Below the pieces are notes generated by a model. That model searched no databases and was not told the DNA's origin. It saw only the letters and a list, made by a program, of their open reading frames with translations. A stretch of DNA of 12,542 nucleotides. Source: Nitrospinae bacterium RIFCSPLOWO2_12_FULL_45_22. GTDB taxonomy: Bacteria > 2-12-FULL-45-22. The position numbers and the translations under genes are program-made. Positions 1 to 12,542 of this stretch are shown piece after piece; the first letter of the stretch is position 1; every line of letters starts with the position of its first letter. The stretch lies in contig MHDQ01000004.1 of NCBI GenBank assembly GCA_001803565.1, positions 445 through 12,986 of the forward strand, read 5' to 3'.

Positions 1-815
1 ATGTTGAACCAGGGAGTTACCCAGATATACTTAATGTTAAAGGCTAACCTAAGGAACATCTTCATCGGCAAGGCTAGCATAGTTAGAAAGAGAAAGGCTA
101 CAATGCTGTAGCGAACCAGCCCAAGGGCCTTTATGACGCGGGTGTTCCTTCTCCATATATAATATAAGACGCCAAGGAAGTACCATGCCCCAACGGCTAA
201 CATCCCAATGATCTCCACACCAAAAACCTTAGGATTCTCCAACCAGGAAATCTTTCTACCCAGCCAGCCAAAAGGGCCCCAGTAGGGCAAGTCCACATTG
301 GTCAGGGCTACTACCTTGTGGGGGTCCCATTTATCCCAGGGCCAGAAAAGGTTCCAGCCTGGCCCTCGAATGAATACTCCCACAATAATCAGCATAACCC
401 AAAGCACTACAAAACCAAAAAGGAAGGTTGATATCTCAAATATCCTATCTCTAAAACAGTAGTAACCGTTTCCTTTCGGATTGATGTCCACATAGGGGAT
501 TACCATCAGACCGATAATAATAAGGCTAGGAAGAACGACCCCTGCAATCCAGGGGTCAAAATAGACCAGCATTTCCTGAAGTCCCAAGAAATACCAGGGG
601 GCCTTTGATGGATTAGGGGTCTTGGTAGGGTCAGCTTGTTCCTCTAGTGGGGCATCAATGCCGATAGACCATACAGTCAAAATGATCATTACAATGAGCA
701 CACATAGGAACTCGAGTCTTGTCAGATAAGGCCAGGTATGAACCTTGTCTTGCTCCTTCTTAGGAATTACTTCCCCTCTTTTGACCGCTACTGGAGCGTC
801 TTGTTCCTTTTCCAT
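1..815 (-). CDS. Cytochrome b C-terminal subunit (subunit IV/PetD-like), 3' end beyond window
   Basis: Membrane subunit forming part of the quinol-oxidation (Qo) site of a Rieske/cytochrome b complex. It reads from ATG at 815 through 271 open codons to the left edge, so the C-terminus is missing. An AGAGGG-like ribosome site precedes the ATG. Hydrophobic segments appear at about residues 34-52, 90-107, 129-149, 196-221 and 234-257, more than the three of a classical PetD, and a Trp/Pro-rich loop lies at about 150-185. The Qo motif usually written PEWY or PDWY reads K71-A-P-W-Y75, so the acidic residue is replaced. Its partners, the N-terminal cytochrome b and the Rieske protein, lie just upstream on the same strand. 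A 236-bp repeat-filled gap separates it from the cytochrome b gene. Family assignment is firm; the lost C-terminus could hold extra helices or a heme c domain. Confidence 0.88.
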   Translation of the reverse strand, partial: MEKEQDAPVAVKRGEVIPKKEQDKVHTWPYLTRLEFLCVLIVMIILTVWSIGIDAPLEEQADPTKTPNPSKAPWYFLGLQEMLVYFDPWIAGVVLPSLIIIGLMVIPYVDINPKGNGYYCFRDRIFEISTFLFGFVVLWVMLIIVGVFIRGPGWNLFWPWDKWDPHKVVALTNVDLPYWGPFGWLGRKISWLENPKVFGVEIIGMLAVGAWYFLGVLYYIWRRNTRVIKALGLVRYSIVAFLFLTMLALPMKMFLRLAFNIKYIWVTPWFN

Positions 816-1051: not shown

Positions 1052-1825
1052 TTATAAAGGGCCGGATATACCCCCGTCCTTCCTCACCCTCCAGAAATGG
1101 ACAATCATTAATATGCCAGCCATCAGGGGTATGGCGATACAATGAAGGACATAGAACCGTAAGAGTGCTGGTGGCCCCACCAGACTCCCCCCCAAGAGAA
1201 GGGAACGGGCATCGTACCGGGGCGTCATTCCCATCTCCAGACCAAAGGGCCCTTCATGGCCCAGAAAAGGTGTAGCCCGCGCCATATTGGTTCCTACAGT
1301 TACTGCCCACATGGATAATTGATCCCAGGGGAGCAGATAGCCGGTAAAGCTGAGTAATAGAGTAAGCACCAGCAGCATTACCCCCACCACCCAGTTAAAC
1401 TCCCTAGGGGGCTTATAAGAGCCGGTCATAAAGACCCGAAACATATGGAGCCAAACGGTTATTACCATGGCATGGGCCGCCCAGCGGTGCATATTCCTCA
1501 TGATCGGCCCAAAAGGAACATCAAACATGAGGTATTTCATATCAGCATAGGCATATTCCCCTACGGGGCGGTAGTAAAACATAAGCACTACACCCGTCAC
1601 CACCGTAACCAAAAATAAGAGAAAAGTAGTCCCACCCATACACCAGGTATAGCGCATCCTTACCCCATGGCGCCGTACCTTTGGTGGATGTAGGTGAAGA
1701 AATACATTGCTCACTACCTGGAGCACCCGGTTCCTGGGGATATCTTGATAACCATGTCGTAAAATGGATTTCCAGACCTGGCTCTCATAAATAATTTTTG
1801 CCAAATCCTTACTTTTTTTTAACAT
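1052..1825 (-). CDS. Cytochrome b, b6-like N-terminal subunit (diheme)
   Basis: This 257-residue integral membrane protein carries the two b hemes that move electrons across the membrane between the Qo and Qi sites. Four hydrophobic helices are visible at about residues 66-86, 116-135, 146-166 and 225-245. The heme ligand pairs are H113 with H127 in helix B and H228 with H243 in helix D; the 14-residue spacing of the second pair is the b6-type arrangement. The stretch HRWAAHAMV, the YKPPRE turn and the terminal [12 protein letters not shown] are strong cytochrome b6 signatures. C62 in the WCMGG segment sits where b6 proteins attach the extra high-spin heme ci/cn. The ATG at 1825 is preceded by AAGGAGGG eight bases away. 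It ends after helix D, so cytochrome b is split into two genes, the second being the downstream C-terminal subunit. Confidence 0.93.
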
Positions 1826-2027: not shown

Positions 2028-2555
2028 CTAAGCCTTCAGGATAGAACCTGGTTTTCCCCACTCACCCTTTTCGTAAAGATACTTCTTGCCCTTATCAATC
2101 AACAATTGACCATCCTCGGCCAAGGTAATCTTTAACCGCTCCAGTGGCCTGGGTGCAGGTCCTTCGAAATTTATCCCCTCTTTGGTAAACCCACTGCCGT
2201 GGCAGGGACATTTGAATTTATTCTCTGCCGTAAGCCACCGGGGGGTACAGCCCAGATGGGTACATATAGCTGAAAGGGCATAAAGGCCATCTTCATCACG
2301 AACGATCCAGACCCTTTGGGTGGCTTTAAATTTCTCACTCACCTCTCCGACGGAATAATCATTAGAATAACCTGCTTTGAAGACCGGGGAAGGTTCAAAC
2401 AGTACCCGGGGGAACATAAACCTTATTAGAGAAGCCCCCCAGATTCCAGAGACAGCTAAAATTCCCAACCAACCGCTTAGAGAAAAGAAATCTCTCCGAG
2501 ACCAGATATATTCCCCTTGTTTAATATCCTCGGCTCTTAGGGATTCTCCCACCAT
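2028..2555 (-). CDS. Rieske [2Fe-2S] protein of the cytochrome b complex
   Basis: This 175-residue protein takes one electron from quinol at the Qo site and passes it to a periplasmic c-type cytochrome. An N-terminal twin-arginine motif (S19-R-R-D-F-F24) runs into an uncleaved hydrophobic anchor at about 25-46, as is usual for Tat-exported Rieske proteins. The cluster motif is C98-T-H-L-G-C103 and C116-P-C-H-G-S121: ligands C98, H100, C116 and H119, with C103-C118 the expected disulfide. The position after GSG is Phe (F123) where high-potential Rieske proteins have Tyr, which suggests a lower midpoint potential and fits a menaquinone chain (inference). The start at 2555 is fixed by a perfect GGAGGT nine bases upstream, which lies inside a 94-bp repeat. 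The two cytochrome b genes follow. Confidence 0.95.
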   Translation of the reverse strand: MVGESLRAEDIKQGEYIWSRRDFFSLSGWLGILAVSGIWGASLIRFMFPRVLFEPSPVFKAGYSNDYSVGEVSEKFKATQRVWIVRDEDGLYALSAICTHLGCTPRWLTAENKFKCPCHGSGFTKEGINFEGPAPRPLERLKITLAEDGQLLIDKGKKYLYEKGEWGKPGSILKA

Positions 2556-2562
2556 TAAAACC

Positions 2563-2653
2563 TTACCTCCAATCTAGCTCATACCAGGTTGTTACCGCTT
2601 TTTGCCCATCTCGATCGCCTTTATTCCCATCCCATACAGCAAAAGCTATAGGT
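2563..2653 (-). pseudogene. Orphan 3' tail of the diheme c/heme b gamma-subunit gene
   Basis: Read on the minus strand, this stretch encodes the last 29 residues and the TAA stop of the fusion protein encoded at 8928-10508 (from P498 through AVWDG and RDGQK to LDWR), with identical DNA. An in-frame TGA lies immediately upstream and there is no start codon or upstream homology, so it cannot be a gene. It is the coding part of the 94-bp repeat copy at 2560-2653. Its stop codon overlaps the GGAGGT that serves the Rieske gene, which suggests a complete gamma gene once ended here and was followed directly by the Rieske gene. Confidence 0.85.
2565..2570 (-). promoter_or_regulatory. Shine-Dalgarno site of the Rieske gene, inside the 94-bp repeat
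   Basis: GGAGGT on the minus strand, nine bases before the Rieske ATG. It overlaps the TAA of the orphan gamma tail (GGAGGTAA). The same hexamer at the other repeat copy (8930-8935) has no start codon at a usable distance, so the site appears to make sense only at this location. Confidence 0.75.
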
Positions 2654-2662
2654 CACCACCAT

Positions 2663-2700
2663 ATAATTTAAACTGATCCCGATAATTCAAACTGATCCCG
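2663..2700. repeat. 19-bp tandem duplication across the chaperone stop codon
   Basis: Two head-to-tail 19-base units, 2663-2681 and 2682-2700, differ at one position (t2669 against c2688). On the minus strand the upstream unit reads through as coding sequence and the downstream unit, with the changed base, creates the TAA stop of the chaperone gene at 2668-2670. It lies about ten bases from the end of 94-bp repeat copy A, so the two may belong to the same rearrangement. Confidence 0.85.
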
Positions 2701-3369
2701 CTTGATCTCCTCAGGTTTGATACCCATTATCTTAGAATCTTGAGATACAAATTTATCGAGTAATTTGGTTATCTCGCAATAAAAACTTGAGTTACTATTT
2801 ACATTCACCTGCTCCTGAAAGGCCCTTGTCCATTGCCCCAAGTGATCTTGGAGAAATTTCCTTTGGGCTTCCCTACAGACCTTTAAATTCCTATGGTCTC
2901 CATTCTTCAGGGCAAATGCCTCCTTAAATGTCAAGAAATGCATAAATTCCAGTTCGACGGTTATATGATCAACTCTATCTTTGTTACCATCAGCTACTTG
3001 TAAACCAAAGGCCTTATAGAAGCCAGCTATGTCGGCAAGGTTTCCAGTATTCATAAAGAGCGGCCCTCGGGCTAGGTAGCTGAGTTCATAGGGTGAACAC
3101 TTAGGCTCCTGATCCTGGCCGAATAAATCAAGATATTCAGAAATGATAGTGGGGAAAATATTGTCCCCGTATCCTTTTATCGAGGTATTCAATAATTGTA
3201 TATGTCCTTTTATTATATGATAGCTGGGTAATTTTTTGGCGTTTTCAGTGAGTTGAGAGATAAATAAAGCACCCGATAGGCATGCCTTAAGCTCTTCTCC
3301 TGGGTAACCAAGAACCGTAGAAAACATTTTGTATATCTGGCTGCGGGCTAATGGTGTCTCTTCCTTCAT
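2668..3369 (-). CDS. TorD/NarJ-like molybdoenzyme chaperone (module 2 delta subunit)
   Basis: This 233-residue soluble all-helical protein has no signal peptide. Family members bind the Tat signal of the apo catalytic subunit and hold it in the cytoplasm until molybdopterin and Fe-S clusters are loaded. Family hallmarks are C91-S-P-Y-E94, the DIAGFYKAFGL segment at 113-123 and DHITVELEFM at 134-143, all mirrored in the other chaperone of this window. It follows the gamma gene by three bases (TAG-ACC-ATG); only a weak GAGGA precedes it, so translational coupling is likely. Its place after alpha, beta and gamma matches the ebdABCD arrangement, so its client is probably the 1161-residue alpha subunit. 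The C-terminus has been altered by a 19-bp tandem duplication. Residue-level function is inferred from the family. Confidence 0.87.
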   Translation of the reverse strand: MKEETPLARSQIYKMFSTVLGYPGEELKACLSGALFISQLTENAKKLPSYHIIKGHIQLLNTSIKGYGDNIFPTIISEYLDLFGQDQEPKCSPYELSYLARGPLFMNTGNLADIAGFYKAFGLQVADGNKDRVDHITVELEFMHFLTFKEAFALKNGDHRNLKVCREAQRKFLQDHLGQWTRAFQEQVNVNSNSSFYCEITKLLDKFVSQDSKIMGIKPEEIKRDQFELSGSV

Positions 3370-3372
3370 GGT

Positions 3373-4197
3373 CTACTTAGTATCCTCTATTTTCACATCT
3401 ACCCAATCTATTGACACCGATTTCTCCCCATCTCTGTTCTTATCCGCACCGTCCCATACCGAGAAGTTTATCTTGGAATCCATCCCCGGTTTAAACTGAG
3501 TGTCTAATTGGTCATTAGTCACCAAGGGTCTGACGAATGCAGCCCTCCATTTGCCTTTTTCGTAAACCCCTTTACCAGCAACGTCTTGCTGTTTCTGCCT
3601 TTCTAATGTGCCAAAGCCCTGGGCAACTAAATCTTCCACAGGAGAGTCTTTTATAAGTCTGCCTCCTTTGATCTCCTTTAGGAATACTTGCTTATCCTGG
3701 GGGAAGTAGTATCCCGGGTAGGGAGGATATTTGGTATCTAGGTATTCGGTGCCATCATCAAGGTCCCCTTGCCAATCGGCACGCCAGAACCAGATGTTTA
3801 CTAAGCCAGGACCACCCATGAAGGGGTCTGTCTCCTCTTTCAGGTTTATTGGAAACTGTAAGGCAGCTCCATCGGTAAAGGCATTTCCAGTCACCTTTGT
3901 ATCCCTGGTTGAATCAGCCCATTCGATGAGAAAGCCAATAGACTTGCCATTGTGCAGCCCTCTAACCTCAATAGGCAGATGCTTACCACCAAAAGGCTCA
4001 GTGATTTCTTGGTCAGTAAGTTCGATAATAATGGGCGTCGCATCATTCCAAACATCAGCGAACGGATCAGTTGCAATATCCTTCTGAGTGTATGCAATTT
4101 TTAGGATAGAAGAGTCTTGCGAATATCCTATTGGTACCAGTACCAAAGCCAAAAAAAATAGCGGTAACAGAACTATTGTTATCCGAACATATCTCAT
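3373..4197 (-). CDS. Heme b-binding gamma subunit, ethylbenzene-dehydrogenase type (module 2)
   Basis: Periplasmic electron-transfer subunit of a type II DMSO-reductase-family complex; relatives EbdC, ClrC and SerC hold one b heme by a Met and a Lys. I chose ATG 4197 (274 residues) because AGGAGGT at 4204-4210 sits six bases upstream and the product then starts directly with a Sec signal, MRYVRITIVLLPLFF, with likely cleavage near GYSQ. The frame extends to an ATG at 4221 that overlaps the beta gene and lacks such a site. Conserved blocks shared with the fused gamma at 8928-10508 include the IGFLIEW strand, TDGAA, VNIWFWRADW, QGFGTLERQK and SVWDG. Candidate heme ligands are the Met in DPFMGG (residue 127 from this start) and the Lys in DGEKSV (259). 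It has no CxxCH and no further helix, so it should be soluble. Ligand assignment is inference. Confidence 0.88.
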   Translation of the reverse strand: MRYVRITIVLLPLFFLALVLVPIGYSQDSSILKIAYTQKDIATDPFADVWNDATPIIIELTDQEITEPFGGKHLPIEVRGLHNGKSIGFLIEWADSTRDTKVTGNAFTDGAALQFPINLKEETDPFMGGPGLVNIWFWRADWQGDLDDGTEYLDTKYPPYPGYYFPQDKQVFLKEIKGGRLIKDSPVEDLVAQGFGTLERQKQQDVAGKGVYEKGKWRAAFVRPLVTNDQLDTQFKPGMDSKINFSVWDGADKNRDGEKSVSIDWVDVKIEDTK

Positions 4198-4203
4198 TTT
4201 ACA

Positions 4204-4210
4204 ACCTCCT
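4204..4210 (-). promoter_or_regulatory. Shine-Dalgarno site that decides the gamma-subunit start
   Basis: AGGAGGT on the minus strand, six bases before ATG 4197 and directly after the beta-subunit stop (4211-4213). It favours the shorter start over ATG 4221. Confidence 0.75.
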
Positions 4211-5344
4211 CTATGTAACATCCAACCTATAAACGTCCAGCCTCTTATCGTAGTGAGGTCTCACCACTGTGGGTTCTTTTATTGGAACCCTGGTAATCTC
4301 GTTCCCCTTCCTGTCATAACCAATTGCCTGGCCATTCTGTATCTTGAAAGACCCTATAAGCTTCTCGGTACTGCCTGTTAAGAGCAGCGCACCGATCAAC
4401 TTCTCGTCCTCTTTGGCATTCTTATATGTCTCTACCGCCTTCTTTGCCCCGGGCCCAAAGATCTGGGTAAGATAATCTAAGGGGACTTGCTTTGGTGGGA
4501 TGTAATATATGTTGGGCTCGGTGCCAAATTGGGGATACGATGGCAGAGCTACCTTCTTGATGTGGACAAGGAAATCCAGAGGATTTGCTGGGTCTGCCTT
4601 TTCCGGTGTATTTAAAAAACCTTGCATCCTTATCTTACCTATGCACATCTCAAAGCACTGACTTATTAGGCCCTGCTCAATCTTGGGATAACATCCTATG
4701 CACTTCTCACTGACCCTTGTGTTCACTCTGTACATAGTCTTTTTATAGGGGCAACCCTTAAGGCACTTCCTATAGCCCCGGCAGCGCTTCTGGTCGATAA
4801 GGACTACCCCATCTTCCTTCCGCTTATAAATGGCCTTTCTGGGACAGGCAGCCAGGCACCCCGGATAGGTACAGTGATTACATGTTCTGGGAAGATAGAA
4901 AAACCAAACTGGGTGAGGTAAATAATTTATGTACATACCCTGTGAGACAGGGCCCCCTGCTATCTCATCCTCCCCAATATTGGGATATGACCAGTCTTCA
5001 TCCTCTGGGGTAAATCCCACCATCTTCTCTCCGGCTTGCTTGGCCTCAAATATCGTCTTGCCCTGGTAAACACCATTGCCCCACTCTTGGGTCTCAAGCA
5101 TCTCAAGGAGCTTCACGTCCCATCCTAAGGGATAATACCCATAGGGCTTGGTCTCTACATTGTTCCAGAACATATACTCTTGACCTCTGCCGGTGGTCCA
5201 GGTGGTCTTGCATGCCAACGAGCAGGTCTGACATCCTATGCACTTGTTTATATCGAATACGCCAGCCCACTGTCGGTTTGATCTTGACTCTCCATAGGGA
5301 AACTCCATCTCCCTGCTTAATTGCCAGTTGTTAACCTTGGCCAA
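4211..5344 (-). CDS. Beta subunit with four Fe-S clusters (NarH/NxrB/EbdB-like), module 2
   Basis: Electron-transfer subunit relaying electrons between the alpha subunit and heme b in gamma. I prefer TTG 5344 (377 residues): GGGGGGT at 5352-5358 lies seven bases upstream, it follows the alpha stop by one base, and the product begins MAKVNNWQLSREM, matching the VYNWHLGRKM of the other beta subunit here. A GTG at 5374 would overlap alpha by 29 bases and has no ribosome site. Cluster motifs (TTG numbering) are C35/C38/C41/C45, C155/C158/C163/C167, C188/Y191/C194/C198 and C215/C218/C230/C234. Tyr in place of the second Cys in the third motif predicts one [3Fe-4S] besides three [4Fe-4S]. It has no signal peptide, as expected for a partner carried out through Tat with alpha. 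It lacks the roughly 30-residue insertion present in the other beta. Confidence 0.92.
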   Translation of the reverse strand: MAKVNNWQLSREMEFPYGESRSNRQWAGVFDINKCIGCQTCSLACKTTWTTGRGQEYMFWNNVETKPYGYYPLGWDVKLLEMLETQEWGNGVYQGKTIFEAKQAGEKMVGFTPEDEDWSYPNIGEDEIAGGPVSQGMYINYLPHPVWFFYLPRTCNHCTYPGCLAACPRKAIYKRKEDGVVLIDQKRCRGYRKCLKGCPYKKTMYRVNTRVSEKCIGCYPKIEQGLISQCFEMCIGKIRMQGFLNTPEKADPANPLDFLVHIKKVALPSYPQFGTEPNIYYIPPKQVPLDYLTQIFGPGAKKAVETYKNAKEDEKLIGALLLTGSTEKLIGSFKIQNGQAIGYDRKGNEITRVPIKEPTVVRPHYDKRLDVYRLDVT

Positions 5345-5345
5345 T

Positions 5346-8300
5346 TTATTTACCCCCCTTCGAGATGAAACCACCTTTTATATACTTCTTCATAGCTACA
5401 TTTTCATAACCAGTCCTGAACCCAAGAACTGCTGGACGCCATTTGCCCTTGCCACTCTCGCCCCCATCCTCTGCCCTGGTGAACTTAACAAATGATTCCC
5501 TTGGGGCACCGTTGGCGCAATGGACATCAGGCTCAAACCCTTTGCCTATCATCTGCCCCATAAGGTTCTTCCTCACAAGGGTATCGGTCAACAGTGTGGG
5601 CCGTAGCCAGCTTCTCGTCGAGCTTTGGTGGCCTCCATATCTGTACATCGATTGATAATTAGTATCGGGATTCCTGGCGAGACCGTCTTTTCTGCTCTCG
5701 TGTCCCCTCACACTGCCATGGGTAGCCTGATACATATTAAACCAAGTCCTGGTAATGCCTTTGGGCAGATTGGGATGGTATCTGGCCCGCAGGAGGCACC
5801 TTGCAACCTTGTAATCAGCCGGTTTATCCTGCCAGCCCTTAAATGGACGATCTTTAGGGTCCGGGTCTACCCAAATGTAATCCCCATCCTCTATTCCCAA
5901 CTCTCTCGCATCATCAGGATTGATCTCTACGTAACCCTCGTTCACCCAGGGTTTACGCTTATCTCGTCTATACATATCACCAAAGGGACCAAACCAGATA
6001 GAGAGGAGGTCCAGGTCAACACCAAAGGTATGAACTGCATGTCTGAACTTAGGTGTTAAGTATATATGAGTGAACCCTTCCTTCCGCAGGGGATGTTTGG
6101 TATTTAACAGCTCGTCCGGTGTATAGACGACATTACGCACCTGGCGGGTCTCTCCAGAGAGATCATCCATGGGCCAGCCATAATCGGTTGGCGTCTTTGG
6201 TTTTATCAATGGATGTCCTTTGGCGACTATCACGTTTGGCTCGTAAAAGGTGGCATCCACTGGTTCTCTGTGAACAGGTAGGTTCTCGCCATAGTCCAAG
6301 AACTCTGGTTCTTCTCTGTAAAACTCCAGCCTCCCGGTCTTATTGTACCATGGGGCAGACTCGACGCTCTGATCGTATCCTATGAACTTCGGGTAGGTCC
6401 TGCTCATCAATAGGGCCGGTATTCCGTCTTTGGCCTTGCTGATCAAATTATCAATCTGGTAGCCTTTCATGGTATTGGAATGGTCTATTATCCTTTGGAG
6501 GTAAGGTTTTGCCTTTCCATCGGCAATAAACCTCCAGTAATCCTTAAATCTACTATCACCAGTCAATTCACCAAGTTTTTCTGATACCCCAGCATAGGTC
6601 TCACTATCGCTCTTGGTATCCCATATCCTGCTAACCCCAGTTAGAGGCATAACCATAACAAAGGGATTGGTGACACTGGCCGTCATATCGTGCACATTGT
6701 ACTCGCCCCAACTGTCAGCCGGCAGCACTACATCGGCATATTCGCAGCTCGCTGACCACCACCACTCATTGACTACTACAGCCTCTATCTTCCTATTGCG
6801 CAGTAAGTTCATCACTACATCGTACATTCCTTTGGAGTTCCCCAGGATGGAGTTGGAAGCAGCAAACCAGAAGAATTTCGTAGGCGTAGGCATGTGGGTC
6901 TCACCATTAAAATATATATCATGAACCTTCAAGGGCGTATCACCATGGGCATAGAAGTGGGCTGACTGCATCTTGAAGTAAGGTTTAACCTTTGCCGGCT
7001 TAGTAGGATCAAGGATGATGTTGAAGGGGTCTTCGGCTATGTACTGGGGCATTCCATTGAATAATGCTGCTCGATAATTCCCTGCATAGCTGCCCACATT
7101 GCCCCCAAAAAACCCGACATTTCTTGTTAATGCTGCTACCAGAAATATGGCCCTGTCCTTCTGATCCGCGTTGAACAGCTGATTCGGACCCATGCCCACG
7201 GTAAAGAGCACCTTTTCCTTATTGGCCGCTATCTCCCTGGCAAGGTTTATTATCGCCTCTTTCGGTGCCCAGGTAATCTTGGAGGTGGAATCAACATTCC
7301 AGGTGTCTTCAAGATGTTGTTTAATAATATCGAATATCGGCCGAACCTTAATCTTTTCTCCATTAGTCAAAGAAATCTCAAACTCACCTTCGAGGGCGGG
7401 CTTGACCCCTTTATTTGTGAACCTTTCCCCGGTATCATCCCGGCTGACCGGAGTGGCTTTCTTAGCGTTACTATCCCATACGACAAAATCCCCCCACTCT
7501 TGTCGCATGTCACTACTAACTGCCGGCATACCAAGATTGGTTGCGAATGGAGGGGGAGGCTTTTCCTCTTTTTTTATAACTCTTGTATACTTTAGCTCCG
7601 CATTGTTATAGCCACTGATGATCTCGTGGGCCCGGAGAAGCTCTCGGGTATCCATCCGCACCAGAAACGGCAGATCGGTGAATCCCTCCACAAATTCCTC
7701 ATCGTATAGTCTCTCATTAATTATCACCTGAGCCAGGCCCAAGGCAAAAGCTGGATCCGTACCGGGCCGGATGATAACTATTTCATCGGCCTTGGAAGAG
7801 GTAGAGTTATAGTCAGTGGTTATGGTAACGACCTTTGCCCCTTTGAGCCTTGCTTCACTCAGCCAATGGCCATCCGGCATCTTAGTACATATCCAGTTCA
7901 TCCCCCAGCATAGGATAATGTTAGCGTATTCAGCATTGACGAGGTCAAAATCGATAGTCTGTTGTCCGGTAACCATAGGGTGTCCCGGAGGCAAATCGGT
8001 ATGCCAGGAATAATTATCGAATCCTATACCTCCAATAGCCTTGTCCGGCCCGACACCACGTATATAGGAGTCCAACAGTGCCATGGAATTAGCCATTCTA
8101 TATAACCCAAAGAGTTTTATTACACCCAATAGCGGCATCCCGCCCCTGAATTTCATCGCTTGTGTACCGGCACCCATCATCTTCTCTATCATCTTGGCAT
8201 CGTAACCCTGCTTCTGGAGCAACTCAGCTCCTTTAGTACCGCTATAAGTTTTAACTGTATCAATCATGCTTTGGGCAACTATAGTGTATGCCTCATCCCA

Positions 8301-8831
8301 GGAAACCTTCTCCCATTGGTCTTCTCCTCTCTTGAAATATTTTAAGGGTGGTTGGCCATTTTCATCCCTGGGAAAACCTTTTTCCACCCACTCTTTGAAG
8401 CCCTTCCTGACCGTAGGATATTTAACTCGCCTATCTCCATAAAACCTACCCACCATAGCCACGCCTTTATTGCATATCCTAGGGTCCCACCGGGCACTGG
8501 CCTTAGTCTCATAAATATCGGTGGCATCACGGTATCGCTGGCTCGGGCCAATGCGGGTAACAATCCCGTTCTTGATATATGCCCTGAGGTAGCAGTTGTG
8601 GGTATCATTTGGAGTGCAAGCGAAAATATAGGATGAATCCGGATTATATATATCCCTATATATCTTTTCCCATTCACGAGGTGGATAATGTTCCAGGGGA
8701 TTTTTTATCTCTGGAATAGGCTGGAGTTTCTCCAATGCCAGACCTATTGCGGGTTTGCTTACCAGAGCGGCCGTTGCAGTAGCCGCTAGTGTTTCCAGGA
8801 ATTGTCTTCTACTTACCCTATCGAATGACAT
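5346..8831 (-). CDS. Catalytic molybdopterin subunit, type II DMSO reductase family (NarG/NxrA/EbdA/PcrA-like)
   Basis: This 1161-residue catalytic subunit binds Mo-bis(molybdopterin) and one Fe-S cluster and probably acts in the periplasm. A Tat signal is clear: S7-R-R-Q-F-L12 followed by an Ala-rich hydrophobic stretch to about 32. The N-terminal cluster motif reads C72-x3-D76-x3-C80-x39-C120, with Asp where many relatives have Cys. RFYGDRRVK at about 129-137 is typical of the perchlorate/selenate/ethylbenzene branch. W276-H-T-D279-L-P-P with the GQQT that follows marks the type II site, D279 being the expected Mo ligand (as in NarG), and [15 protein letters not shown] at about 309-323 continues that domain. 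A late segment, [10 protein letters not shown], lies in the C-terminal dinucleotide-binding domain. ATG 8831 follows GGGGAG at good spacing. Full length, no frameshift. Substrate unknown: nitrite/nitrate, chlorate, selenate or hydrocarbons are all possible. Confidence 0.93.
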
Positions 8832-8885
8832 CTTAACTCCCCTTTCGGAAAAACTATAAAGGTATTTTCTAATTCGCGGAGGTTC

Positions 8886-8900
8886 ATCAAGACCCTTGAT
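8886..8900. promoter_or_regulatory. Short palindrome upstream of the alpha gene (possible operator)
   Basis: Perfect six-base arms (ATCAAG/CTTGAT) around a three-base centre, in the 96-bp gap between the fused gamma gene and the alpha gene, about 55 bases before the alpha ATG. A further ATCAAGG follows nearby. The stem is too short and lacks a T-tract for a terminator. I see no convincing -35/-10 pair, so a regulatory role is only a suggestion. Confidence 0.2.
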
Positions 8901-8924
8901 CTCTCTGTTCCTTGATAGCTAAAG

Positions 8925-9018
8925 ACCTTACCTCCAATCTAGCTCATACCAGGTTGTTACCGCTTTTTGCCCATCTCGATCGCCTTTATTCCCATCCCAT
9001 ACAGCAAAAGCTATAGGT
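8925..9018. repeat. 94-bp perfect direct repeat, copy B (identical to 2560-2653)
   Basis: This copy is the native 3' end of the fused cytochrome c/gamma gene: last 29 codons, TAA and three further bases. Its twin at 2560-2653 is identical. Same orientation, 6365 bp apart, with the whole alpha-beta-gamma-chaperone set between. Confidence 0.97.
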
Positions 9019-10508
9019 ACTTTGGTACCGGGATTCATGTTAAGATCATATGGCTCATTGGATTTCAAGCTTCGTTTGAAAATAACCTTCCAAAAACCAT
9101 TAGCCCATATCCCTTGTCCATCCACATTCTGCCCCTCGACTTTTTGGCTGGTCAATGTACCAAAGCCTTCAGCATTAAGGTCTTCTATTGCCGATGGTTT
9201 CTTCGGGTTAGAAGCATAGTTACCCGCACCCCAACCAGTCACATAGGTTCGGTTATGAGCAGGGGAAGGAGCCATAGGAAATTGCCTGCGGGATTCGGTC
9301 TTTTTAGGATGCCATCCTGAGGCAAATAAATAATCATCTGCCGCCATCTGGGGGTATACATCTTCCATATCCTGGAATTTTTTAAGATCTAACTGCCTAT
9401 CCATTCTCCAATACCATATATTTACCGGCTTACCTTTTGTCCCCATAGTAAAATGAGGTAGCTCCGGTGAGAGGGAAAACATGATGGCTGCCCCATCGGA
9501 AAAATCTTGATGCCGGGTGAAGCGACCAGCCGGCTCCATATCCTCCCACTCCAGGAGGAAGGCGATCTCTTTCTCATTATGAATAGCCTTTATCTTTGCT
9601 GACTCGATTACTTCATCCCTCTGCCAGAGGAGCATGAGGGGAATTTCTCCGGCTGCAACAGTTTCCCATACTGGACTGTTGGGGTCTGATACAATATCAC
9701 CTGTTATTTTTTGTGCCGTTATTTTGCCCGTGCTCGGTTGCTGGGCTACCTTTTGAGCAGCCAATGACTTTACATAACGAACTAAAGCCCAGCGCTCTTG
9801 CTCATTAGCTGAATCTTCATAGGAAGGCATAGGGGTTCCATCCATTCCGGTAGTGAACCTGAGATAGATATCAGAATCCTTGCCCCCACCTTTATAAACC
9901 CCCCGGGTGAAATTATTGGGGGGGGCAGGATAGCCCCAATCGTCCTTGAGGCCAGATACAGATGGGCCATCTCCCTTTCCCTCTTTACCATGGCATTCCC
10001 AGCATTTTAGTTTCTGATAGAGCGCCTTTCCCTGGGATACGAGCTCAGGAGCCGCACTAGATACAGCCGGTACTTTAATCATCCTTTCAGGCTCCCCTTC
10101 AATATTAGCCATTTTTTTTACATAATGAACCAGTGCCCAGCGATCTTGTTCTTGAATCGAGCTAAAACCAGACATAGCAGACCCGGGTAATCCTGTGGTT
10201 ATAGTATTAAATAGGTCCTGATCAGTAGGAGGTTCGCCGGATGGTGTAGAACGCACCTTAAAGACACCACTAGTGAAGTCCCTGGGTTTGGGAAAAAGGA
10301 GATAAGCGGCTGTCCCATCTCCCTTACCTTCCATACCATGGCATACACTACATTCTTGCTCGAAAAGGGTCTTGCCTCTCTGTAAAAGCTCCGGGTTAAC
10401 ATCCACCGCACCAGTATCCTGAGAGGCTAAGGGTAACACTAAGAAGGACAATAGAAGTGATACGAATAGATAACCTCTCCTCTCTCTCAAAAGCTTTACC
10501 CAGTTCAT
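8928..10508 (-). CDS. Diheme cytochrome c fused to a heme b gamma subunit (module 1)
   Basis: This 526-residue periplasmic electron-transfer protein begins with a Sec signal (hydrophobic residues about 13-28). Two class I-type cytochrome c domains follow: C53-S-V-C-H57 with likely sixth ligand M112, and C169-W-E-C-H173 with likely M227. Residues about 260-526 form an ethylbenzene-dehydrogenase-type heme b domain homologous to the gamma subunit at 3373-4197 (EIAFLLEW, DGAA, VNIWYWRMD, EGFGTL, AVWDG, RDGQK). Candidate b-heme ligands are M355 and K515. The predicted path is beta Fe-S clusters to heme b, then two c hemes, then a soluble carrier or the Rieske/b complex, or the reverse. ATG 10508 is preceded by AGGAGGT at five bases, and the gene follows its chaperone by 14 bases. 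The 3' end is one copy of the 94-bp repeat. Twice the length of an ordinary gamma subunit. Confidence 0.92.
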   Translation of the reverse strand: MNWVKLLRERRGYLFVSLLLSFLVLPLASQDTGAVDVNPELLQRGKTLFEQECSVCHGMEGKGDGTAAYLLFPKPRDFTSGVFKVRSTPSGEPPTDQDLFNTITTGLPGSAMSGFSSIQEQDRWALVHYVKKMANIEGEPERMIKVPAVSSAAPELVSQGKALYQKLKCWECHGKEGKGDGPSVSGLKDDWGYPAPPNNFTRGVYKGGGKDSDIYLRFTTGMDGTPMPSYEDSANEQERWALVRYVKSLAAQKVAQQPSTGKITAQKITGDIVSDPNSPVWETVAAGEIPLMLLWQRDEVIESAKIKAIHNEKEIAFLLEWEDMEPAGRFTRHQDFSDGAAIMFSLSPELPHFTMGTKGKPVNIWYWRMDRQLDLKKFQDMEDVYPQMAADDYLFASGWHPKKTESRRQFPMAPSPAHNRTYVTGWGAGNYASNPKKPSAIEDLNAEGFGTLTSQKVEGQNVDGQGIWANGFWKVIFKRSLKSNEPYDLNMNPGTKVPIAFAVWDGNKGDRDGQKAVTTWYELDWR

Positions 10509-10513
10509 ATATT

Positions 10514-10520
10514 ACCTCCT
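10514..10520 (-). promoter_or_regulatory. Strong Shine-Dalgarno site of the fused gamma gene
   Basis: AGGAGGT on the minus strand, five bases before ATG 10508, within the 14-bp gap after the chaperone stop. It is the strongest ribosome site in module 1 and supports the chosen start. Confidence 0.75.
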
Positions 10521-10522
10521 CC

Positions 10523-11266
10523 CTATAGTTTTTCTGAGTTGTTAACACAAGAAACGCAGGTATCATCAAACTCATATCTCTGCGGCTGGAGCTCTCCTAT
10601 TGGTTCAGGATGAACTTTAAAAAACCGCATTTCTGTCTTTAAAAATTCCTCGGTTAGAGCCCCCAGCCCATAATAGAAGCCGTTGGTTGCCTTATTCATC
10701 AAGAGTCGTAGGAATAAGGGCGCCCATCTCCCCAGGTTTTCTTTCAGAAATTTTTGCTGGGCATCTCGGCATATCTGGACTTTATCTTCGCCATGCCTCG
10801 CACTGGCATAGTATTCTTTGTATGCAAGAAACCCCATAAACTCCAGCTCAACACCGATATGGTCTAAACGCTCTCCCTGTTCCTGAGAAACCTCCAGTCC
10901 AAATGCCCTATAGAACCCAGAAATATCCGCTAAGGTTTGGGTCTGTTGAAAGACATGATGTACACCATATTCGGTCTCACAAGGAGGGCAGTCCTTGGAA
11001 ACAGAATGGCCCAAGACTCTTCCATATTCGAGCTTTAATTCTTCCAGGGAAAGTCCCTTGAAGGCGGCTCCTTGTTCTCTAAGCTTCTGTAAAAACCCAT
11101 TCTTTGGCCCATCTGGGAGAAATTCCCCCCATTCCCTCAGTTCTTCTATGAAGTAACCCTGGTGGAGTAAAGCAAAAAAATCATCACCTGGATAGAGAAA
11201 GGCACCCGATAGAAGCTGATAAATTCTACTTCGGGCAAAGGCTTGCTGAGGATCATACCCTTCCAT
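10523..11266 (-). CDS. TorD/NarJ-like molybdoenzyme chaperone (module 1)
   Basis: This 247-residue cytoplasmic helical protein is homologous to the chaperone at 2668-3369 (shared SRIYQLLS start region, DISGFYRAFGL at 114-124, DHIGVELEFM at 135-144, the CR-AQ-KFL segment at 166-174). The expected client is the alpha subunit of module 1, off the right edge. The family's central motif reads C93-P-P-C-E-T-E-Y100. A second CxxC (C237-V-S-C240) near the C-terminus is absent from its paralogue and could bind a metal or form a disulfide (inference). ATG 11266 follows GGGAGA, 13 bases after the beta stop. Its place between beta and the gamma fusion is the order of serABDC/clrABDC clusters, unlike module 2. 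Confidence 0.88.
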   Translation of the reverse strand: MEGYDPQQAFARSRIYQLLSGAFLYPGDDFFALLHQGYFIEELREWGEFLPDGPKNGFLQKLREQGAAFKGLSLEELKLEYGRVLGHSVSKDCPPCETEYGVHHVFQQTQTLADISGFYRAFGLEVSQEQGERLDHIGVELEFMGFLAYKEYYASARHGEDKVQICRDAQQKFLKENLGRWAPLFLRLLMNKATNGFYYGLGALTEEFLKTEMRFFKVHPEPIGELQPQRYEFDDTCVSCVNNSEKL

Positions 11267-11279
11267 TGTTATCTCCCAA

Positions 11280-12542
11280 TTAGATTGAGTTAAGATGCAA
11301 ATCCTTCCGGATATAGATAGGTTCTTCTACCGTAGTTCTAACTATTTCCTTCCCATCCCTTCCGTAGCCAATAACGGTATCATTATACATGGACCAGGTC
11401 TTGCCATTAATACTAGTCTCAAAGACCTTCTTACCTTCCTTGATCTCGTACCGGAAGATAATTTTTTGGGCGATACGGAAGAGTTGTAAGACAGCTAATA
11501 GCTCCCTGCTAGGGGCGAGGTATTTTTCTATTGCTTCATCCGCTCCGGGTCCAAACATCTGCCACAGATAGGGCCGGGGAACCGTCCTGGGTGGGATATA
11601 ATAACCGTTGGGCTGGGTGCCAAGCTGTGGATAGAGAGGAAGAGCAACTTTTTCGACCTTAACCATGTAATATAGGGGATTATATCTATCTTCGGCCCAG
11701 GAGCCATCCTCCTTGATCTTTACCAATCCCTGAAGTCTTATCTTCCCCACACAGGCAGCCATACAACGGGTCTCCATAGGATCGCCACCGCTCAGGGGGT
11801 CCTTACCCTCGATCCGGGGGTAGCAGGCAATACATTTTTCCGAGACCCTGCTAGTACCCCGGAACATTGGTTTCTTGTAGGGGCAAGCCTCCACGCATTT
11901 TCGGTACCCCCGGCAGCGGTTCTGATCTAACAGGACAATACCGTCTTCTGGCCGCTTATAAATGGCTTCCCTAGGACAGGCTGCCAGACAGGCCGGATAA
12001 GTACAGTGATTACAAAGTCTCTGGAGGTGAAAGAACCATGTTCTATGTTCTGGCAGGGAGACCCCTTTCTCATCCCAGACAAAATCTAACCCTTCTGTCC
12101 TAACTGGAGTATCTTCATAGATATTTGGAAATCGCCACTCTTCATCACCTGGGATGAACCCGATAGCCCGCTGCTGCCCTTCCGGGCCATATCTTTTCTG
12201 GGCCCCCTCAAAAATAGTTACCCCTTCATAAACTCCATAGGGTTTCTGCCCGCCATCTTTTTGGGCAAGGTTCCATACTTGCCCGCCAGGATTGGCCTCT
12301 TCGAGCATTTGCAAAATCCTGACATCCCAGAATTGAGGATATCCTCCATAGGGCTTTGTTTCTACGTTGTTCCACCACATATATTCTTGACCTTTAGAAA
12401 AGGTCCAGGTAGATTTACAGGCCATGGTGCAAGTTTGACAACCAATACAGCGATTTGTGTTGAAGACAAAGGCAAATTGTTGCTGTGGATGCTTTTCCTC
12501 ATAGGGATAAAGCATCTTTCTACCCAGGTGCCAGTTATAAAC
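11280..12542 (-). CDS. nxrB: Beta subunit with four Fe-S clusters, NxrB/periplasmic NarH-like, 5' end beyond window
   Basis: Electron-transfer subunit of module 1; 420 residues are visible. The frame stays open through the right edge with VYNWHLGRK before the first visible ATG (12515). Nitrite oxidoreductase beta subunits begin with an M-x-x-VYNWQLGR-like stretch, so only a few codons are probably missing. Counting from the first visible residue, cluster ligands are C32/C35/C38/C42, C177/C180/C185/C189, C210/Y213/C216/C220 and C237/C240/C260/C264, predicting three [4Fe-4S] and one [3Fe-4S]. From memory of the family, the EYMWWNNVETKPYGGYPQ block, the ELLAVLQLFR insertion, the MYNDTVIG segment and the terminal NSI resemble NxrB of Nitrospira and Kuenenia closely. 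NxrB and periplasmic NarH cannot be told apart by sequence alone, so read the symbol as nxrB-like. The direction of catalysis is unknown. Confidence 0.9.
   Translation of the reverse strand, partial: VYNWHLGRKMLYPYEEKHPQQQFAFVFNTNRCIGCQTCTMACKSTWTFSKGQEYMWWNNVETKPYGGYPQFWDVRILQMLEEANPGGQVWNLAQKDGGQKPYGVYEGVTIFEGAQKRYGPEGQQRAIGFIPGDEEWRFPNIYEDTPVRTEGLDFVWDEKGVSLPEHRTWFFHLQRLCNHCTYPACLAACPREAIYKRPEDGIVLLDQNRCRGYRKCVEACPYKKPMFRGTSRVSEKCIACYPRIEGKDPLSGGDPMETRCMAACVGKIRLQGLVKIKEDGSWAEDRYNPLYYMVKVEKVALPLYPQLGTQPNGYYIPPRTVPRPYLWQMFGPGADEAIEKYLAPSRELLAVLQLFRIAQKIIFRYEIKEGKKVFETSINGKTWSMYNDTVIGYGRDGKEIVRTTVEEPIYIRKDLHLNSI

Follow-up and report, generated by a model that had tools for sequence, protein, structure and literature searches.

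The window, i.e., the whole stretch of 12,542 nucleotides that was analysed, is the central, N-free part of scaffold C4 (13,584 bp) and is bounded by N gaps of 26 and 20 bases; the source MAG comprises 3.67 Mb in 321 contigs and is 85% complete. All genes in the window lie on the minus strand. Their order in the direction of transcription is alpha1 (outside the window), beta1, chaperone1, gamma1, copy B of a direct repeat, alpha2, beta2, gamma2, chaperone2, copy A of the repeat, and the bc genes Rieske, cytochrome bN, and cytochrome bC (Table 1). Module 1 is incomplete inside the window, with alpha1 lying past the scaffold gap: its C-terminus is encoded at C4:13276–13584 and its N-terminal part on contig C144. 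Each of these two contigs has a matching part of alpha1 at its end, and they are probably neighbours. Beyond the left gap begins a protein whose N-terminus resembles an 895-aa cytochrome c encoded beside the bc genes in genome G189. The Rfam search gave zero matches in the window or in contig C144.

Table 1. Features of the locus in window coordinates.
Feature	Position	Strand	Remarks
beta1	11280..12515	-	NxrB-type iron-sulfur subunit; PDB 7b04_A match
chaperone1	10523..11266	-	
gamma1	8928..10508	-	NxrC-like; fusion of an EB_dh heme-b domain with two cytochrome c domains
copy B	8925..9018	-	true end of gamma1 (its final 30 codons with the stop), followed by 3 bp
inserted segment	2654..8924	-	6271 bp between the repeats, alpha2-beta2-gamma2-chaperone2; insertion probable
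alpha2	5346..8831	-	molybdopterin catalytic subunit, sister clade to NxrA; best match PDB 7b04_B
beta2	4211..5374	-	iron-sulfur subunit
gamma2	3373..4221	-	heme-b (EB_dh) subunit
chaperone2	2668..3369	-	NarJ/TorD-like (DMSO reductase type II chaperone)
19-bp tandem duplication	2663..2700	not assigned	one mismatch; covers the stop codon of chaperone2, ~10 bp away from copy A
copy A	2560..2653	-	orphan gamma1 3′ end, non-coding, with the Rieske ribosome site
Rieske iron-sulfur protein	2028..2555	-	start codon 4 bp after copy A
cytochrome b, N-terminal half (bN)	1052..1825	-	86% identical in G001 (same order)
cytochrome b, C-terminal half (bC)	3..815	-	

The spacers between Rieske and cytochrome bN and between bN and bC contain copies of an intergenic element (positions 839–883, 963–1007, 1918–1959, and 1957–2001), often as inverted pairs, with the core TGCAAAATTAGCAATTAG. 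Genome-wide, this core has 37 matches at no more than one mismatch versus 0 for the reversed control, and the element is a dispersed REP-like or MITE-like family. Contig C144 (L087 in G000), on which alpha1 starts, shows a change in GC content from 0.36 to approximately 0.56–0.60 at its far end (about positions 5500–7150); a foreign segment, a mobile element, and a chimeric contig are candidate readings of this jump.

The alpha1 subunit matches NxrA of Kuenenia (PDB 7b04_B) over residues 1–907 with E = 0 and 1437 bits, NxrB and NxrC have their matches in beta1 and in the gamma1 C-terminal domain, and the Fe-S beta subunit, the heme-b gamma subunit, and a dedicated chaperone are encoded together, as in the Kuenenia NxrABC and other NXR loci of DMSO reductase type II. 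As judged from the sequences, module 1 is thus predicted to be of the nitrite-oxidoreductase (NXR) type within the DMSO reductase type II family. The locus differs from these systems in the two extra cytochrome c domains of gamma1 and in the presence of a second complete module inside the cluster, whose alpha subunit belongs to a sister clade with just 41–44% identity to alphas of the NxrA type.

The alpha2 subunit also matches NxrA (940 bits) and is about 41% identical in protein to alpha1, with 40–44% identity to module-1 alphas. In the tree, alpha1 pairs with the subunit from G189 and alpha2 with those from G058 and G225 (support of 100/100 in each case), in two deeply separated clades; alpha2 lies outside the NxrA-type clade, in a separate clade of 18 rows (100/100). 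Module 2 is therefore classified here, by its predicted proteins, as an NXR-like sister clade and not NXR proper. From the family, the enzymes would, as NXR-type enzymes, either oxidize nitrite or reduce nitrate in connection with a bc complex.

The complete module 2 is bracketed by two direct repeats, copies A and B, which are identical over 94 bp at a spacing of 6365 bp and extend to 97 bp with one mismatch, while in 30 first-order Markov simulations of the window the longest exact repeat was 15 bp. The flanks diverge sharply on either side, and our direct comparison confirmed the identity, the abrupt divergence, and the spacing given in the initial annotation. Paralogy of gamma1 and gamma2 was ruled out as the origin of the repeat, the C-terminus of gamma2 being only ~46% identical at the protein level.

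The two copies stand in different relations to their neighbours. Copy B is the genuine 3′ end of gamma1, as had been annotated, and the reading of copy A as an orphan tail without a gene also holds: in the gamma1 frame, a TGA codon lies directly upstream of it (TGG TGG TGA CCT ATA GCT) and closes the frame, so that copy A gives no gamma1-like product. Inside the repeat, the motif GGAGGT (2565–2570) lies 9 nt ahead of the Rieske ATG (2553–2555). When one copy and the block between the repeats are deleted in silico, gamma1 is followed directly by Rieske with a well-spaced ribosome site, in accordance with the original proposal. Because a non-coding gamma1 tail supplies the ribosome site of Rieske, copy A alone points to a former neighbourhood of gamma1 and Rieske.

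Between gamma1 and alpha2 and between chaperone2 and Rieske, no clear candidate for a promoter or a terminator was seen. A terminator-like site near copy B was rejected as a 5-bp palindrome within gamma1. The perfect 5-bp palindrome GGTAC-CAAA-GTACC (9016–9029) spans the 5′ edge of copy B and may form a hairpin at the breakpoint. The 19-bp tandem duplication, which provides the stop codon of chaperone2 beside the copy A junction, is possibly a slippage mark and would be compatible with an illegitimate join.

A long exact repeat in a short scaffold raises the question of the assembly. The true arrangement could be a chromosome with gamma1–Rieske and a separate or tandem circle that carries the block with a single copy of the repeat, or several strains could be mixed together, and we consider such an ambiguity unlikely. 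The repeat forms a two-in, two-out node (in from gamma1 and chaperone2, out to alpha2 and Rieske) and may exceed the k-mer length of the assembler; reads shorter than the repeat plus its flanks cannot separate the integrated form from gamma1–Rieske plus a circle, and the scaffold of only 13.6 kb has N gaps on both sides in a MAG that is incomplete and divided into many contigs. However, the four junctions lie in otherwise unique sequence, and real DNA with the 94 bp is needed at each end of the block, for gamma1–alpha2 as well as for chaperone2–Rieske. A plain graph chimera is also an unlikely source of copy A beside chaperone2, since there is no other shared sequence at position 2654.

We consider it probable that the module 2 operon was inserted recently at the gamma1/Rieske junction with a 94-bp target duplication. 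According to this model, module 1 would first have come to adjoin a resident bc operon, with gamma1 directly before Rieske, and a ready-made module 2 operon (6.27 kb) would then have joined in right after the gamma1 stop codon. The insertion would have duplicated the final 94 bp of the target, so that copy B ends gamma1 and copy A keeps the Rieske ribosome site; both neighbour genes are intact, and the new genes would enter the co-directional run from alpha1 to cytochrome b. As the mechanism, we think it most likely that the joining was illegitimate or was homologous on one side only (homology-facilitated), with a right-hand join that would lie 94 bp upstream of the left-hand join. The literature found on the joining mechanism, as on the alpha2 clade, gave general background only.

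Tyrosine-recombinase islands classically leave a duplicated gene 3′ end on each side of the inserted DNA. The locus resembles such islands in that the 3′ end of a gene is repeated directly at both edges with the gene restored, and the repeat stops 3 bp past the stop codon. That a genomic-island-like element integrated site-specifically at the gamma1 3′ end, with copy B as the restored end and copy A as the far attachment site, nevertheless appears very unlikely. The four enzyme genes are the only genes between the repeats, where neither an integrase nor a transposase was found, and they leave just 93 bp between copy B and alpha2 and 14 bp between chaperone2 and copy A; the locus thus differs from the known islands in having no integrase and no extra cargo beyond the enzyme operon. 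Further attachment copies are also absent, as a genome search with 91 of the repeat bases returned two copies only and no third, and the predicted fold of the repeat was no better than that of shuffles (z = −0.31).

Insertion by a transposon or IS was rejected: no inverted repeats were seen at the edges of the block, which contains no transposase, and a 94-bp duplication is far above the usual target-site lengths of such insertions. It is very unlikely that the block is a mobile, reversible respiratory cassette, in which recombination between the repeats would excise a 6365-bp circle with the whole second molybdoenzyme, restore the gamma1–Rieske operon, and let cells of the population alternate between having one enzyme and having two; since the block has neither an integrase nor a transposase, there is no support for mobility or reversibility.

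Comparison with other genomes characterizes module 2 as an independent unit. It usually forms its own operon elsewhere, and the order alpha2-beta2-gamma2-chaperone is kept in most of the other module-2 loci examined. Both modules occur in four other genomes and are never adjacent there: in G058, G061, and G363 they lie on different contigs, and in G153 they are ~75 kb apart. In G363 (L132, G363:C6), alpha2 is found as two overlapping pieces (7655–8647 and 8644–11097), which is either a frameshift or an assembly error. The annotated insertion of this four-gene block at the gamma1/Rieske junction has good support from the stand-alone operons, from the separate relatives of the two modules (G058/G225 versus G189), and from their separation in these four genomes.

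The older operon that had been proposed, with the fusion gene before Rieske, fared less well. The search for a gamma1–Rieske junction without the block covered the phylum (2 genomes), the phyla of G030 (3), G189 (4), and G363 (5), the class of G058 (1), and, for alpha2 and cytochrome b, a spread of 386 genomes; none was found among the genomes examined, of which the nearest relative, G001, is at the order level. A gamma1 search of the contigs returned only distant cytochrome c relatives with 26–35% identity. In G001, a stand-alone operon consists of Rieske, the two cytochrome b halves (bN and bC), and a 913-aa cytochrome c; this genome, which is 68% complete, has neither module, and no NXR-type alpha was found in it. 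G189 has related bc genes upstream of alpha1 (64% for Rieske, ~81% for cytochrome b), and its gamma1 is followed not by Rieske but by a 241-aa gene, which also follows gamma1 in G386. The gene upstream of alpha1 on C144 resembles, by eye, a 315-aa gene upstream of alpha1 in G189. Since the arrangements in G189, G386, and G001 differ, the gamma1–Rieske adjacency is not a general ancestral order and would be, at most, a lineage-specific feature, read here from copy A only.

Two further observations concern the neighbourhoods of these loci. The ~240-aa protein (L137, 3877–4602; homologues in L154, L175, and L179) is encoded after gamma1 in G189 and G386 and, in G355 and G365, after the cytochrome c of the bc locus, and is a recurrent partner of NXR and bc loci. 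In G174, G311, G025, and G101 (L117, L118, L119, and L126), module 2 has a distinct bc operon upstream, made up of Rieske, cytochrome bN, and bC; bc genes thus joined NXR-like modules on more than one occasion.

The adjacency found in no other sampled genome, and the fact that bc operons usually stand alone or before enzyme genes, would suit another order of building, in which the two NXR modules lay next to each other beforehand and Rieske later received, on its upstream side, a copy of a short gamma1 tail that gives it a ribosome site. We regard this order as distinctly unlikely: the extra copying event must by chance have its end just 4 bp ahead of the Rieske ATG, most of copy A would be useless and yet identical, and the adjacency of the modules would stay unexplained. 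Insertion of module 2 behind gamma1 is retained as the probable direction of events.

The composition of the locus was also compared, with codon use confined to the locus genes. Synonymous codon use differs between the block and module 1 (z = 6.5) and between the block and the bc genes (z = 2.4), while module 1 and the bc genes show no difference (z = 0.3). However, alpha2 and beta2 (z = 3.8) and alpha1 and gamma1 (z = 4.3) also differ, and the codon signal is weak because the genes within each module differ almost as much. No GC shift of note marks the block, the GC content being nearly even across the locus.

The age of the event can be estimated from the repeat itself. The 0 differences in 94 sites set a 95% upper bound of ~3% divergence, and one of the copies is mostly unconstrained, in agreement with the recent event originally suggested; compared with the ~41% protein identity of alpha1 and alpha2, the insertion would be recent relative to the enzymes. 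A length of 94 bp suffices for homologous recombination in bacteria, and an old insertion whose repeat copies were kept identical by gene conversion or frequent recombination would be compatible with all the data. A positive sign of such conversion is absent, the repeat being one lone pair whose copies diverge sharply on either side, and we consider this history extremely unlikely.

The insertion that we favour has known counterparts. Illegitimate or homology-facilitated insertions with a duplicated target likewise have direct repeats exactly at the edges of the segment, no mobility genes, and intact neighbours. Variable segments described earlier (PMC2884548) are mostly short, and ~10% of them are flanked by direct repeats; the block studied here is larger (6.3 kb) and contains a complete respiratory operon. 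The locus thus exemplifies, in a clean form, a known class of rearrangement scar and is not a new type of genetic element.

Taken together, our data give an unusually clean snapshot of a bacterium joining two distinct NXR-family enzymes and a bc complex in one run of genes, in an NXR-type cluster of an uncultivated lineage. The duplicated gene end would indicate the place, the order, and the rough recency of the insertion, and the locus suggests that the NXR-like sister clade represented by module 2 acts as a transferable unit.
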